A DNA stretch of 38,499 nt from Pedobacter psychrophilus (GTDB lineage Bacteria; Bacteroidota; Bacteroidia; Sphingobacteriales; Sphingobacteriaceae), in assembly GCF_001652725.1 (NCBI RefSeq), contig NZ_LWHJ01000033.1, forward strand, positions 1-38,499. The letters are read 5' to 3'. Under the pieces are notes generated by a model, which was not told where the DNA came from, searched no databases, and was given only the letters and a program-made list of their open reading frames with translations. Positions 4,354 through 35,466 of the stretch are shown here, in pieces (the first letter of the stretch is position 1; each line of letters opens with the position of its first letter). The position numbers and the translations under genes were made by a program.

Positions 4354-5858
4354 TTATTCGTCAATATCATCGCCTTTAGGCTTGATTGGCTTATTTTTAA
4401 CTTGTTCTTTTCCGTAGTGGGGATTTGGTTCAACTGCTAATTTCGCATCAGTTTTTTTAATCCACGCTAGTAACTCTGCAAGCAACTCATCTCTTTTTGG
4501 CTTATTGATATTCGCCATGTTTTTTTGCTCGCTTATATCGCTTTTCAAATTATAAAGCTCAACTGCGTTATTGGTATTAACTGTTTTTAACCCGCCATCT
4601 AAAGCCCATTCTTCGTGGTAAAGCAGCAATTTCCAATCTCCTTTTCTAATGGTAGTCACCGGTCTTGATCTAAACTTATCATCTCTCGAACCTGGATCTG
4701 GGCCATCTAGATAACCTGGAAAATGCCAGAAAATAGATTTACGCTCCAATTGACTACCGCCCTTAAAAAGTTTCACCAAACTTCGCCATCCAAGATGTTT
4801 CCATCCTTATTTTTTCTTCCGGCTACGTCGATAAATGTTGGATAAAGATCAACGTTGATGATAGGTACGTTGTTTTGTGTTCCCGGTTTAATGACACCCG
4901 GCCAACGAGCAATAAAAGGTTCTTTAATTCCACCGTCGTAATACATTCCTTTAAAACCTCTTAATGGGGTTTGTGGAGATTGTGGAAGTCCGCCATTATC
5001 TGAGGTGAAAATTACTAGCGTATTGCTGTCTAAACCTAAGTCTTTGATTTTCTTCAACAAAATTCCAACACCATCATCCATTTGACCATTCATTGATGCG
5101 TATTTTTTGTTGCTCTGAAATTTCCCATCTGGTCTATCCTTGAACTTTTCGACCATTTCTTCTCTAGCTTGAATTGGCATGTGTGTTGCGTGGTGCGAAA
5201 CATATAAAAAAAATGGCTTATCCTTATTGTTCTCTATAAACTCGCAAGCGCCGTTTGTTATCTTATAAATGTACTTAGGGTCGTTGGTTTTCGCCATCTC
5301 TTCTTTCGAAGGAACATTGTAAGAACTATCTACATCAAAACCTTGGTCCGCAGGCATTGTATTGCTACTTTCATTCCCTAAATGCCACTTACCGAACATA
5401 GCCGTTTTATAACCAGCATCTCTCATTGCCTCTGCAACAGTATAAATATCAGGTCTTAATTTGCTGGTGTTCGGAATAGGAATGGTTCTCATTTGATTAA
5501 TAGGACCTCTTTCTGTGTTATAAACAGCGTATATTCCATGACGAGGAGTATATTCTCCAGAGATTAAACAAGCTCTACTTGGTGCACAATTTCCTGCACT
5601 GGCATATGCGTTGTTGAAAATCATTCCCTGTTTTGCCAGCGCATTAATATTTGGTGTGTCATAAAAATCAGAACCTGTAAAGCCTGCATCTTTATAGCCC
5701 ATATCGTCAATAAGAATTAAAACTACGTTTGGCTTTTTGGTTTGCGCAGTTGATTGAAATGAAGTAAAGAGCACAAAAAGTCCAATGAGAATTTTGCCGA
5801 CTAATTTGACACTTGAAGTGTTTTGTTGTTTTATTAAGTTTCCTATTTTGTTTTTCAT
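4354..5858 (-). pseudogene. Sulfatase (arylsulfatase family) interrupted by a one-base frameshift
   Basis: Two overlapping frames together make one sulfatase. The 5' part (5858 to 4773, 361 codons) has a membrane-spanning signal segment, metal ligands D51-D52, the formylglycine motif C91-A-P-S-R, and K157/H159 in GKWHLG. It then ends after LDGEVW. The 3' part (read from about 4779 to 4354) resumes with LVKLFKGG and the family's C-terminal segment. Adding one base near 4779-4783 restores LDGESLVKLFKGG and an uninterrupted protein of about 501 residues, a normal sulfatase length. The catalytic half is intact but the C-terminal subdomain is detached, so the product is probably inactive unless this is a sequencing error. 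The restored enzyme would remove sulfate esters from the glycan in the periplasm. It sits in the operon 37 nt after the esterase gene. Confidence 0.88.
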
Positions 5859-6743: not shown

Positions 6744-8809
6744 TTAATTTAAAAACGCAGTTTCTGGAATGGCTTCTTTTCCTTTTCCAGACGTACTCCA
6801 GCTTAGTTTAAGCTGTGTAGTTCCAGTAGAATTACTCAGTTTGAAATGGTGCAACTTTATAGGATGCAAACCCGCTTTCAATTTCATCACCGCGGTTTTC
6901 TCTTCGCCAGCTGTATAATTAAAATCCTCGTCTATAACAGAAATATCATGAATCCTTAGAAACGCCTTACTGCCTGTAGATAAGTAGAAAGTATATTGTC
7001 CATCTGTTGGAACATTAATATATCCTTCAAAAACCACTAAATTTCCTTTTTCTATAGTTGCATTAGGAGCAGCCACTTTTGTTTTTGCTATTGGTTTTAA
7101 TAGCGCAGTTTGTGGAATCCAATGTTCGTTAACAGCAAAAGCTTTCTTTACTAAACCTTTCTTAGCTTTTTTGATATCAACAGCAGGGACAAATGCTTCA
7201 TCGTAAGGTCTTTCCGCTTCTTCATCTGGTTTACGCATTTGTAAAATTTTATCTTTCATTAGCGCTTGTAAATAAGGTTCTGATTTTGCCAAATCATTAG
7301 CTTGTTTAGGATCTTTTAAAATGTTATAAATCTTAAAATCATCTCTGGCTGATTTTATCTCATACCTTACTCCTACTATATCCCCAACTCTTAGCATTTG
7401 CATTTGACCACGCTTAATTCCCCTGCGACCTGGTTCAAACTCTTTATACTCGGAAGTACGACTTGGATGAACATACTCGACATAAATATTACTTGGTGCT
7501 TGTTTACCTTTTCCTGTTAGTGAAGGAATTAAAGAAACGCCATCAGACCTAAGCGGTGCTTTAAAGCCTGCTGCTTCGGCAAAGTCGGCATCCAATCGTA
7601 AGAGATATTTGGGGTTTTAACAACTGTATTAGGTTTTATTTTACCTGGCCACCAAACAATAGTGGGTTCTCTTTCGCCACCTTCTAAAACATCTCTTTTG
7701 ATGCCATCGAAAGGACCAAAGCTGTTAAAAAAGTCTGCTTCATAATCAACAAATGACTTTGGTAAGTAAGATTCTTTAGAAGGACCATTATCTGAAGTAA
7801 AAACTACCAAGGTATTTTCGGCGATATTTAAATCTTTCAACAACTGAATTAAATCACCAATTTGATCGTCAATTCTGTGGTTTACGCTTGCAAATCTTTT
7901 GTAAGTATCTGGCCAAGCAACTTCTGGCGTATTTGGGTTACTGTCATCATCATAAGTTGCATTTGCGTAAGCTGGATAAACGTAACTGTCTGGCTTTCCA
8001 GATGCTGTATTAATCATTTCTCCTTTTTTTCCTAACCATTTCATCCCACCGTTTAAACCTCCACCAGCGGGGTAAGCTTGTGTAGGTAATTCTAAAACAG
8101 CGTGTGGTGTATCATAAGCTAAGTACATAAAAAAAGGTTTTTCTGCTTCGGCACCTTTTTGGTGTTTGATGATGTAATTTTTTGCAACCGCAGTAAATAA
8201 ATCACCAGTATAACATTTATCCAATCCTGAACTTACTTCGGTATAATTTTCCCAAACATCTTTAGCACCTTTATATAAACCTTCTTTTGGATAATGCTCA
8301 TGTCCATCGCCGTGACCGATATAACCATAGTAATAATCAAATCCTCTTTTTAAAGGATGTGCAGGCCAAGAGTTTGATTTATCTTTTCCTTGCAAACCCC
8401 ATTTCCCAACAGCGGCGGTGATATATCCTTGTGCTTTCAATGTGTTTGCTATGGTGTAATTATCTTCCAAAGCTTTATCAAATTGGTTGTCTCGCACATT
8501 TGCATGGCCTTGACTTACACCCAATAAAATAGATGCTCTTGATGGCGCACAAACAGGCGCTGCAGCATATTGTTGAGGCAAAATTGCACCTTCTGCCGCC
8601 ATTTTATCTAACATTGGTGTAATCATCCATGGTTCGGTTCTATCGTTTTTCGCTTTTCTTTGGTTTTGAAAAAAGACACCAACATCTCCATAACCCATGT
8701 CATCCACCAAAATAAAAATGATGTTGGGTTTTGTTTTTTGATCTGATTTTTGAGCAAAAGACATAGCTGCTAGTAAGCAGATAAAAAGGGATAAAATTGT
8801 TACTTTCAT
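6744..8809 (-). pseudogene. Sulfatase with C-terminal PA14-like domain, interrupted by a one-base frameshift
   Basis: The 5' frame (8809 to 7529, 426 codons) carries a signal peptide, D36-D37, the formylglycine motif C87-A-P-S-R, K136 in GKWGLQG, and a TSDNGP metal motif. It ends in an unrelated tail after YDWMPT. The correct continuation (FAEAAGFKAPLRSDG) lies in the next frame and runs to 6744. One extra base in the short T-run (minus strand) at 7581-7583 would join them into about 688 residues. The C-terminal 110 residues (GYINVPTDGQYTFYL and following) look like a PA14-type beta-sandwich, a carbohydrate-binding module seen on some sulfatases. The motif is GKWGL rather than GKWHL, a known variant. 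The gene lies 34 nt after the upstream sulfatase gene. The catalytic core lacks its C-terminal part, so the product is inactive unless the lesion is a sequencing error. Confidence 0.88.
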
Positions 8810-32499: not shown

Positions 32500-33378
32500 T
32501 TAACTTTCTGATTCATATTGTTGGTGAGTTACTAATACATGAGGCAGTGTTATTAAAGATAATAAGATAAAAGCGCCCCCAATATTAAAATTAAAAGCAT
32601 ACAAATAATATCCAAAAAATACCAGCGCAATAATGCTAAAGGGCAACATAGATAAATAAAAATACTTACTACTTTCATTATATTTACCTACAAAATAATT
32701 CTTTTGGTGCCTTAAAGATTGTAATGAATGCCATAAACAAAATACCATTATAAAACCAAACAACAAAGGAGTTAACAGGTACCAAACCAGTATTAAAACA
32801 AATTGAAGTGTATACTTTAATTTGTTTTCCTGGGTATAAATATAAATACTTGATAAGTAAGCGATCGCTAAAATGATTATAAAAACAATTTTCCAAGTCT
32901 GAAAATAAACTGGATAATCTTGATTGATATTATAATCTTGGTTAGGATAAAGCATACTTTTAAAAATCATTGTTGACTCTTCAAAATGTATAACTACCGG
33001 TAGCATGATCAAAAAAAATCCCCATATAATTGCTGGTAAATGCCAAACACTTTTATTCTCATAATTAGACTGACCAAAATGATGGAAGGAGATGATAAAG
33101 AATAAAACCAGGGCTATAGATGGTAAAAAATACCAGGCTAATGCATAAAAAAATATAACTACTAAATAAGAAATTAAAAATTTTACCAAGCCTAATTTAG
33201 ATCTATCTTTTCTGTATAAATAATCGTTAGAGCCATGTGGGATACCTACTAGGCATAAAAAAACACCAGCGATTACTGCTTGTGTTGTAAAGTTAAAATT
33301 GATAAAAAAAATAAATAAAATTAACACCAATTGAACGATGCATTGAACAAAAAAAAGCTTGGTATTGATGTATTTCAT
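32500..33378 (-). CDS. blh: Brp/Blh-family beta-carotene 15,15'-dioxygenase (retinal synthesis)
   Basis: This 292-residue integral membrane protein cleaves beta-carotene into two retinal molecules, the chromophore of the rhodopsin encoded nearby. It has about seven to nine hydrophobic helices and the family's iron-binding histidines: H48 in GIPHGSND, H99/H100 in FHHFGQ, H217 in LWHSLQSLRH, and H280 in LITLPH. The start codon overlaps the crtY stop by ATGA, so translation is coupled. Rhodopsin, lycopene cyclase and Blh together provide a full path from lycopene to the retinal protein, provided lycopene is made elsewhere in the genome. Length and motif spacing are normal for the family. Confidence 0.93.
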   Translation of the reverse strand: MKYINTKLFFVQCIVQLVLILFIFFINFNFTTQAVIAGVFLCLVGIPHGSNDYLYRKDRSKLGLVKFLISYLVVIFFYALAWYFLPSIALVLFFIISFHHFGQSNYENKSVWHLPAIIWGFFLIMLPVVIHFEESTMIFKSMLYPNQDYNINQDYPVYFQTWKIVFIIILAIAYLSSIYIYTQENKLKYTLQFVLILVWYLLTPLLFGFIMVFCLWHSLQSLRHQKNYFVGKYNESSKYFYLSMLPFSIIALVFFGYYLYAFNFNIGGAFILLSLITLPHVLVTHQQYESES

Positions 33379-34598
33379 CTCACAAAAAAATATTTGAATA
33401 ACGACTTTATAAATGGCAATAGAGGTAACTGAGAAAAAATGACCACCTCCTCAAATATAGTAGTTTCTTCATCCAAAAATTTTAGGATTAAAGGCAGCGG
33501 TTGCTTTTTAAAAAGAGTTACAAATATTTTTTTTCCTATATATGGGGTATCACGCAAAATTTGAAGTAATAATATATCATAAAGCCTAAACCTCCATTTT
33601 CTTTTCATTGTAGGCAAGCTGATTTCATTGGAATATTTTAGAGATTTAGCCAATCTTTCCGCATAGTTAAACATCCTTTTAAAGCCATATCCTGCTGTTG
33701 GTTTTAATGCACCAGCCAATGTACCCATGTAAATAACACGTTGATTTTTTTTCAATTTATCCTTTAAATGATCAAATTGTGGAGTCATTGGGATTGCACC
33801 TTTTTCTACTTCTAAAATTTGATATTCTACGCCTTTTAATTTTAATCGTTTTTCAATTTGAGATGTAGCATAATCATAATCTAAAATTTCAGTTCCAAAT
33901 CTGGTGAACTCTATTAAAGCTTCATTTTTTGAAAATGGTAATTCGTAAAAAAATTGAGTATATAAAGATTGATCAACATCAAAATCCATCATTGTCATCT
34001 CTGAAGGGTCAAAGACTGCATTTTTGGTTTTAATTTTATATCCCACAAAAGATTGCCACAAAAAAATCTGATTCTTTTTCTCTGAAGCTTTCTTCCCCAA
34101 ATAAAGGTTTAATTTATCCTGTTCTTTAGGTTTGTTACCTTTTGGCAAAGCCGAAAGAAAAGCATAGTTGCTTTCCCAATTTTGTGAGGTAGTTTGTATG
34201 GTTATATTGTTATCAATTTGATTTACACCAGTAACAGTATCATTTAACCAAAATATAGCGTCATTATGTTTTAGTTTACTTTTTAAATGCTGATAAAAAT
34301 CTTGACTTTTAACATGGTAATATTTATATGGATAAATAGCATTTTTCCCCCCTCGATATAAATTTTTAATGATATGCCATTTTTTACTAATAATTTCTGG
34401 TTCTGCTAAAGGTTTTTTTGCCCAGTAACACCAAGTACGGTCATTAAACTTATCCGAATCATTTTCTACAATGCAAAGGGTTTTATCTTTTAAAAGACCA
34501 TATTTAAGCATAGAATTTGCCAACCACAAACCTGAGGCTCCTGCGCCAACAATTGTAAAATTGTAAAATGATGGATATTTAGGGTTTTGCACTAGCAA
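33375..34598 (-). CDS. crtY: Lycopene beta-cyclase
   Basis: The 407-residue flavoprotein cyclises both ends of lycopene to give beta-carotene, the substrate of Blh. It has an N-terminal dinucleotide-binding motif at 14-26 (FTIVGAGASGLWL), the family motif RTWCYWAKK near 54-62, the DPSEMTMMDFD region with its acidic residues, GAIPMTPQ, and the AGALKPTAGYGFKRM signature. No ATG precedes the nucleotide-binding motif in frame, and a TAA lies three codons upstream. Translation must therefore begin at TTG (34598) or GTG (34592), a non-ATG start that may keep expression low. It is separated from the rhodopsin gene by 133 nt with a terminator and overlaps blh by 4 nt. Confidence 0.93.
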   Translation of the reverse strand: MLVQNPKYPSFYNFTIVGAGASGLWLANSMLKYGLLKDKTLCIVENDSDKFNDRTWCYWAKKPLAEPEIISKKWHIIKNLYRGGKNAIYPYKYYHVKSQDFYQHLKSKLKHNDAIFWLNDTVTGVNQIDNNITIQTTSQNWESNYAFLSALPKGNKPKEQDKLNLYLGKKASEKKNQIFLWQSFVGYKIKTKNAVFDPSEMTMMDFDVDQSLYTQFFYELPFSKNEALIEFTRFGTEILDYDYATSQIEKRLKLKGVEYQILEVEKGAIPMTPQFDHLKDKLKKNQRVIYMGTLAGALKPTAGYGFKRMFNYAERLAKSLKYSNEISLPTMKRKWRFRLYDILLLQILRDTPYIGKKIFVTLFKKQPLPLILKFLDEETTIFEEVVIFSQLPLLPFIKSLFKYFFVR

Positions 34599-34617
34599 TA
34601 AAAATTAATTGGCCTTT

Positions 34618-34656
34618 AAATAAAAAGTCAAGGTATTTTATAAACTATACCTTGAC
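34618..34656 (-). terminator. Intrinsic terminator between the rhodopsin gene and crtY
   Basis: A perfect 10-bp stem, GTCAAGGTAT (34627-34636) with ATACCTTGAC (34647-34656), surrounds a 10-nt loop. On the minus strand the stem is followed by TTTTTATTT. It ends the rhodopsin message about 75 nt after its stop codon. crtY-blh must then be transcribed by read-through or from their own promoter. Confidence 0.7.
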
Positions 34657-34731
34657 CTGTATTTTTTAATTCTAATAAAAAAATTTCAATGTTGATTTTT
34701 ACTTACTAGAGTGATGTTAATTATATGCAAA

Positions 34732-35466
34732 CTACGCAACTGCTTTCCTTGCTTTTGCAGTTTCTGCAGTAGCTACAGAATAAATAACCAATCCAAAACC
34801 GATCTTGTTAATAGCATCTGCCAGGTTGTAGAAAAGGTCAATAGATTTTACCTCAAACACTCCAGATAATAAATTTCCTGGCAATACCATATATCCAATT
34901 GGATAGATAGACCAGCCTAATGTGATGAAAATCTTTAATAAGAACATCGCATTTGCCAAAGCAGGACTGTTTGATAGCTTAGTTAATTTAGCAATATCCC
35001 CAGCAAATACTTCATAAACAATGTATAAATAACCTAATGTAGAAAGTACTCCCCACATAATGTTGTTATCAACACCAGAAGTTTCGCCAATAAATCCAAA
35101 AATTAACATGGCTGCAGCGGCAACAATTAATTTAAACAATGTTGCACCTTTAGCACCAAATGGCTTGGTTAATAAATAAAACTCTACGGCCATTAACGGA
35201 ACTGTTAATGTCCAATCAATGTAGCGTAAAGCGGTTGGGGTTTCATGCGTTGCTAAATAGTAGTCTCTCATGTAGTAATAATGTACTGCTGCAATACCGG
35301 TAATTAATGCTGAAACCAGCAATGAAAGTTTCCATTTTCCATCAACACTTCCTCTTTCAAAGAAAAAGAAAATCGACGATGCAAACATGGCCATGTAACC
35401 AGTAAAGAAAGTGAATGCAATTGGGTCGTCCGTTGGGATAACCATAATGTCTAGTAATGAATTCAT
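34732..35466 (-). CDS. Proton-pumping rhodopsin (proteorhodopsin/xanthorhodopsin-like)
   Basis: This 244-residue, seven-helix retinal protein pumps protons outward when lit, adding to the proton motive force. Helix C reads RYIDWTLTVPLMAVE, giving D84 (counterion), T88 and E95 (donor), the DTE triad of outward proton pumps; H62 pairs with the counterion. K221 in DAINKIGFG is the retinal Schiff-base lysine. M92 occupies the spectral-tuning position (105 in the marine green proteorhodopsin), indicating green absorption, as is usual in Bacteroidota. In helix E, G139 in MWGVLST aligns with Gly156 of xanthorhodopsin, the small residue that leaves a window for a carotenoid antenna; blocked pumps carry Phe there. 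There is no cleavable signal peptide. The genes for making retinal follow directly after a terminator. Confidence 0.96.
   Translation of the reverse strand: MNSLLDIMVIPTDDPIAFTFFTGYMAMFASSIFFFFERGSVDGKWKLSLLVSALITGIAAVHYYYMRDYYLATHETPTALRYIDWTLTVPLMAVEFYLLTKPFGAKGATLFKLIVAAAAMLIFGFIGETSGVDNNIMWGVLSTLGYLYIVYEVFAGDIAKLTKLSNSPALANAMFLLKIFITLGWSIYPIGYMVLPGNLLSGVFEVKSIDLFYNLADAINKIGFGLVIYSVATAETAKARKAVA

Follow-up and report, generated by a model that had tools for sequence, protein, structure and literature searches.

Window glycine and helix F proline in a proteorhodopsin of Pedobacter psychrophilus: a candidate carotenoid-antenna proton pump

3-Hydroxylated xanthophylls are bound by the rhodopsin Kin4B8 and by two proteorhodopsins, KR1 from a flavobacterium and EinA29G6, both of which bind zeaxanthin and lutein (PMC12308411). 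The structure 9jou is entitled as a zeaxanthin-bound light-driven proton pumping rhodopsin NM-R1, and a literature search for NM-R1 together with zeaxanthin and rhodopsin found no paper. On the strength of KR1, EinA29G6 and the NM-R1 structure, carotenoid antennas of Bacteroidota proteorhodopsins are already in print. The key window residues of Kin4B8 are Gly153, Thr157, Tyr204, Ser208 and Tyr209 (PMC13093654); the Tyr at 204 is stated to be conserved in all known carotenoid binders, and the S208A variant retains 2% of zeaxanthin binding (PMC12308411). Xanthorhodopsin and Gloeobacter rhodopsin have Met at the 208 site and 4-keto carotenoids as partners (PMC12308411), and G178, T179 and T182 of Gloeobacter rhodopsin are considered to fix the keto ring in place (PMC9151804). 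Here, we compared these systems with the rhodopsin gene of Pedobacter psychrophilus, which lies in a window of 38,499 nucleotides (the whole stretch of DNA that was analyzed; contig NZ_LWHJ01000033.1). We consider it somewhat better than an even chance that its product is a Bacteroidota outward proton pump with a carotenoid antenna of some kind, the pigment left unspecified, where we infer the open gap, the binding, the energy transfer and the pigment. The gene and the two codons on which the argument turns are as follows.

34732 to 35466, minus strand: proteorhodopsin-type rhodopsin of 244 residues with D84, T88, M92, E95 and K221 (open reading frame, alignment and profile match).
35050 to 35052, minus strand: codon of Gly139, equivalent by alignment to xanthorhodopsin Gly156 and Kin4B8 Gly153 (the equivalence of the latter two from PMC12308411).
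34879 to 34881, minus strand: codon of Pro196, at the site of Kin4B8 Ser208 and of the Thr of KR1, EinA29G6 and NM-R1 (alignment and the residue table of PMC12308411).

The initial annotation had placed G139 at xanthorhodopsin Gly156 by a gapless helix E alignment and had contrasted it with the Phe of green proteorhodopsin. Our alignments bore this out; MWGVLST of helix E aligned without a gap with LWGFLST of xanthorhodopsin (3ddl), and the position of G139 is occupied by Phe in green proteorhodopsin (8cqc) and by Trp in Med12 (4jq6). Upon setting the helix F register by the ungapped WxxYP motif and the published residue table (PMC12308411), we found the five Kin4B8 window positions to be Gly139, Thr143, Tyr192, Pro196 and Gly197, of which three match. 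Tyr192 stands at the conserved Tyr204, and the equivalents of Gloeobacter rhodopsin G178, T179 and T182 are Gly139, Val140 and Thr143, with Phe in xanthorhodopsin for T179.

The remaining residues are those of a pump. The open reading frame matched the Pfam family Bac_rhodopsin with 139.5 bits (cut-off 24.6) and was the single match to this family in the host genome (4.0 Mb, 99.92% complete). D84, T88, M92, E95, G139 and K221 were invariant in the protein and 14 relatives from its order, and both the retinal-binding Lys K221 in helix G and His H62 in helix B were invariant in all 15 aligned rows. The helix C set D84/T88/E95 of an outward proton pump, proposed earlier together with K221, was thus recovered in the open reading frame and in the alignments. 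In this family, D84 is the proton acceptor, E95 is the donor and K221 binds retinal, and all three are present here as conserved residues. M92 occupies what we take to be the tuning position 105 and presumably gives green absorption. The sequence and the predicted fold were closest to proteorhodopsins, with alignment identities of 42-45% to three proteorhodopsins versus 30% to xanthorhodopsin and 31% to Gloeobacter rhodopsin (6nwd), which places the protein outside the xanthorhodopsin family. Fold rank was discarded as a guide to antenna use, as four of the ten top fold matches were rhodopsins of other kinds. Judged by its residues, the protein is a predicted green-light outward proton pump of the ordinary proteorhodopsin kind.

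In the proposed mechanism, light would isomerize the retinal on K221, the proton would move to D84 and then out, and E95 would reload the Schiff base. Gly139 would open a gap next to the ring of retinal, and Thr143 and Tyr192, as placed by alignment, would complete a Kin4B8-like window. A membrane carotenoid might dock at this gap and hand blue-light energy to retinal. The weakest step is the nature of the pigment, which would be a flexixanthin-type 4-keto monocyclic carotenoid rather than zeaxanthin or lutein.

This choice of pigment starts from Pro196. The Ser or Thr found at Kin4B8 208 in the 3-hydroxy-xanthophyll binders Kin4B8, KR1, EinA29G6 and NM-R1 is replaced by Pro, and among 119 pumps with D-T-M-E at positions 84, 88, 92 and 95, the site held Pro in 91, Thr in 21 and Glu, Asp or Ser in 7. 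The pumps of L083, L084, L102, L105, L133, L136 and L161, which have Glu, Asp or Ser at this site, are natural variants useful for a binding comparison. The host genome provided the second line of evidence, through the following homologs.

Contig C11: CrtB-like gene (Pfam SQS_PSY 153 bits; NCBIfam matches all below cut-off, with HpnD first at 100.8 bits and CrtB next at 76.6).
Contig C11: bifunctional-desaturase-type CrtI (739.7 bits, above cut-off).
Contig C11: lycopene cyclase domain protein (98.5 bits, above cut-off).
Contig C22: CrtD (654.5 bits, above cut-off).
Contig C22: acyltransferase-like gene and CruG-like glycosyltransferase gene (both far below their cut-offs).
Contig C22: CruF (Pfam 101.2 bits, above cut-off; NCBIfam 76.3 bits, below cut-off).
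Contig C22: CrtW (ketolase) homolog, behind a gene identified by eye as IspH-like (259.6 bits, below the cut-off of 350).
Contig C31: CrtZ homolog (37-39% identity to three plasmid-borne homologs; no NCBIfam name).

Flexixanthin is a 3-hydroxy-4-keto monocyclic carotenoid. Homologs of seven of the eight genes of the flexixanthin set, crtW included, were found in the genome, and crtE was not searched; by this gene content, the host may make flexixanthin. The crtZ-type hydroxylase that the initial annotation had proposed to look for is represented by the homolog on contig C31, which shares ten invariant histidines with the three plasmid-borne homologs, one of which adjoins crtB in a Pantoea carotenoid cluster while another is annotated as a beta-carotene hydroxylase. 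If an antenna exists, a 4-keto monocyclic carotenoid would fit better than zeaxanthin, since Pro196 takes the place of the polar residue that anchors a 3-hydroxy ring in helix F and since the host encodes a ketolase homolog along with homologs of most flexixanthin genes; with Thr143 considered as well, a 4-keto ring seems likelier than a plain 3-hydroxy ring. In its wider form, the proposal is that the Pro196 pumps of Sphingobacteriaceae and Cyclobacteriaceae are a proteorhodopsin group with a native flexixanthin-type 4-keto monocyclic antenna, perhaps glycosylated and acylated like salinixanthin, and we regard this as a tentative suggestion that is rather unlikely to hold. If true, such a proteorhodopsin would pair with a ketocarotenoid in the manner of xanthorhodopsin, and its pocket would lack the polar anchor for a 3-hydroxy group.

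The strongest alternative, to which we give a substantial chance though one below even, is that the pump has no antenna, that Gly139 is kept for other reasons across Bacteroidota rhodopsins and that lipid fills the gap. It was weighed on three samples: 400 genomes of the order (a rhodopsin match in 22, of which 19 were above cut-off), the best 80 loci of 559 relatives from named genomes, and 395 genomes of the phylum (a rhodopsin match in 61). Four order loci (L029-L031 and L033) were dropped as below cut-off, L033 being also a fragment. The 148 rhodopsins tabulated comprise 100 of a first alignment (the order and the best 80 of 559 relatives) and 48 of 68 phylum loci, 20 having failed the motif used to pick the frame; as these sequences are related, a few even identical, the counts are not independent. 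Gly stood at the window column in all 100 rhodopsins of the first alignment and in all 138 D-T-E rhodopsins sampled from Bacteroidota, whose genomes include 55 with and 23 without a CrtW homolog. It was also present in the five D-T-K rhodopsins, while five of other kinds had Phe. As evident from these counts, the helix E Gly match exceeds chance but is a lineage-wide feature; it does not single out the P. psychrophilus pump, and the difference from green proteorhodopsin is a difference of lineage. We therefore rejected Gly139 as a distinguishing mark. A window Gly is commonly taken to indicate an antenna, and its invariance in 138 D-T-E pumps means that Gly alone cannot tell carotenoid users. 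Two points speak for an antenna nonetheless: carotenoids are bound by other proteins of this family, and 24% Trp and 2% Phe at this position in 150 Gloeobacter rhodopsin homologs (PMC9151804) indicate that Gly is not required for the fold.

The D-T-K rhodopsins, in which Lys replaces the donor Glu, are L026, L027, L028, L032 and L163; the best PDB match of L028 was xanthorhodopsin, and L026, L027 and L032 have a crtY homolog nearby on the opposite strand. Of the 20 phylum loci dropped by the motif, 17 were N-D-Q (sodium-pump type), one was D-T-Q and two were of neither kind; by eye, WG stands at the window in 18 of them, among which are the 17 N-D-Q loci (e.g., L125, L127, L128, L131 and L132).

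Besides the loss of Gly139 as a mark, several findings weigh against an antenna or its proposed pigment. The window Gly of the 17 N-D-Q and the one D-T-Q rhodopsin indicates that Gly need not mean an antenna. Pro196 and Gly197 stand where Kin4B8 has Ser208 and Tyr209, leaving the polar helix F anchor absent, and xanthorhodopsin N191, L197 and M211, named in PMC3587595, align with L176, T182 and P196. The structure model has a confidence of about 61 for residues 191-210, which include the end of helix F. The CrtW, CrtB and CruF homologs score below their NCBIfam cut-offs. Data on pigments or carotenoid binding in P. psychrophilus did not turn up in the literature, which was not searched by organism name, and among the papers searched, flexixanthin and rhodopsin occurred together in a single Bacteroidetes taxonomy, which has each word once.

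The carotenoid genes did not track the pump in a way that decides the matter. CrtZ was surveyed at 50 of 80 genome loci and CrtW in 80 of 92 listed genomes. A CrtZ homolog was found in all 50 rhodopsin genomes examined and in 324 of the 400 sampled genomes of the order, so that a host crtZ is to be expected and was set aside as support for an antenna; the order counts were 19/19 rhodopsin-bearing versus 305/381 other genomes (Fisher p 0.03, uncorrected for relatedness). CrtW was present in 16/19 rhodopsin genomes of the order versus 159/381 others (p 0.0005), and in all 39 of the surveyed genomes with a pump of 72% or higher identity to that of P. psychrophilus. Within the genus, CrtW occurred in 15/16 genomes and CrtZ in 16/16, whereas only 5/16 have a rhodopsin; because CrtW is there with or without rhodopsin, we read its association with rhodopsin as shared ancestry. 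At site 196 (78 genomes, as two of the 80 surveyed were duplicates with the same CrtW places), CrtW was found in 44/51 Pro196 versus 8/21 Thr196 genomes (p 0.00008), leaving 7/51 Pro196 genomes without it; in one family (f4), none of the eight Thr196 genomes has it, a 32-bit match in one of them not being counted. The change between Pro and Thr occurred once on the tree and yields one independent pair, which makes the association inseparable from shared ancestry. No link of CrtW to Pro or Thr is therefore demonstrable, a point that favors the absence of an antenna. Taken together, the antenna proposed in the initial annotation is supported in part by the pump residues, K221, G139, the window residues Thr143 and Tyr192 and the crtZ homolog, and it loses force in that G139 is undistinctive, the helix F anchor is Pro and the presence of crtZ is expected. 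The replacement of Ser/Thr by Pro in a large Bacteroidota pump group, with a ketolase homolog in 39 of 39 genomes with close pumps, offers a sharp test of how the pigment is chosen: a proteorhodopsin lacking the anchor may favor a 4-keto ring, like xanthorhodopsin, or may have lost the antenna.

The weaker alternative, a sub-case of the antenna reading that differs in pigment, is that a 3-hydroxy xanthophyll, for instance zeaxanthin, is the ligand, as in KR1 and NM-R1, and that contacts other than the anchor hold its ring. NM-R1, which is 46% identical, has a structure with zeaxanthin, the host has a CrtZ homolog, bicyclic beta-carotene for a zeaxanthin-type pigment could come from the adjacent CrtY, and astaxanthin, with both 3-hydroxy and 4-keto groups, binds KR1 (PMC12308411), which we count on the same side; but with the Ser/Thr anchor replaced by Pro196, a pocket that differs from NM-R1 in having Thr143 for Gly, and a CrtW homolog that could put a 4-keto group on such rings, we judge it improbable.

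The antenna reading also concerns a gene that does not stand alone, as the following two genes lie next to the pump.

33375 to 34598, minus strand: CrtY-type lycopene cyclase of 407 residues, 133 bases past the rhodopsin stop (profile matches).
32500 to 33378, minus strand: Brp/Blh beta-carotene 15,15'-dioxygenase of 292 residues, overlapping crtY by 4 bases (profile matches).

CrtY matched Pfam Lycopene_cycl with 146.7 bits (cut-off 23.4) and NCBIfam TIGR01790 with 94.9 bits, below the cut-off of 209.5; Blh matched NCBIfam TIGR03753 with 147.8 bits (cut-off 95.25) and Pfam BCD with 129.2 bits (cut-off 28). The two genes are the retinal-making set, in which CrtY gives beta-carotene and Blh cleaves it to retinal. 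Among 52 loci with pumps of 72% or higher identity to that of P. psychrophilus (L035-L086), 50 have a crtY homolog as the gene after the rhodopsin, in the same orientation, and the order rhodopsin, crtY, blh on one strand was found in 47, some of the misses lying at contig ends. The genome has two lycopene cyclases of different families, this CrtY and a CrtYcd-type enzyme near crtB (L008:10562-11257), as if one cyclase made the beta-carotene that becomes retinal and another served the pigment branch.

Trees of the operon genes were in strong conflict over positions 32500-35466. Quick trees were built from the P. psychrophilus locus and 28 loci picked from 99, most for having crtY. The rhodopsin tree grouped the pump with those of Daejeonella and Cyclobacteriaceae, to which it is 74-86% identical over the best segment while the crtY genes are only 25-35% identical (L035, L036 and the Cyclobacteriaceae loci are among those concerned). 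The crtY tree grouped P. psychrophilus with L012, L016, L098 and L103, whose crtY are 47-53% and pumps 62-64% identical; blh agreed for L098 and L103, and the blh of L012 and L016 were too short to place. Topology tests imposed on one gene the groups taken from the tree of the other. Forcing the rhodopsins into the crtY grouping cost 118 log units (approximately unbiased test, p-AU 1e-72), and forcing crtY into the rhodopsin grouping cost 349 log units (p-AU 2e-49). The conflict suggests that genes have been exchanged within the operon. An operon that kept its other genes but had its pump gene replaced would account for the trees, as would one in which crtY and blh were replaced. Elsewhere in the window, two sulfatase-like genes (4354-5858 and 6744-8809) in a long polysaccharide-use region each seem, by eye, to be split over two overlapping frames, for which a frameshift and an assembly error are both possible.

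Comparison with the known systems placed the pump nearest to NM-R1, as 9jov and 9jou were the two best PDB sequence matches and practically tied. NM-R1 (9jou) shares D-T-M-E, the window Gly and the equivalents of Tyr192 and Met193, but it is only 45-46% identical and has Gly instead of Thr143 and Thr-Pro instead of Pro196-Gly197. KR1 (Dokdonia eikasta) and EinA29G6, compared by published residues rather than full sequences (PMC12308411), belong to the proteorhodopsin family and both have the window Tyr, followed by Met in KR1, whereas they carry Thr-Asp and Thr-Glu, respectively, at the anchor site that is Pro-Gly here. Green proteorhodopsin (8cqc and 7b03) is a D-T-E pump with 42% identity and a close fold, but it has Phe at the window and Leu in place of Met92. 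Salinibacter xanthorhodopsin and Gloeobacter rhodopsin have the helix E motif WGxxST in common with the pump, as well as the window Tyr, which is followed by Met in xanthorhodopsin; they belong to another family and have Leu in place of Met92 and Met in place of Pro196.
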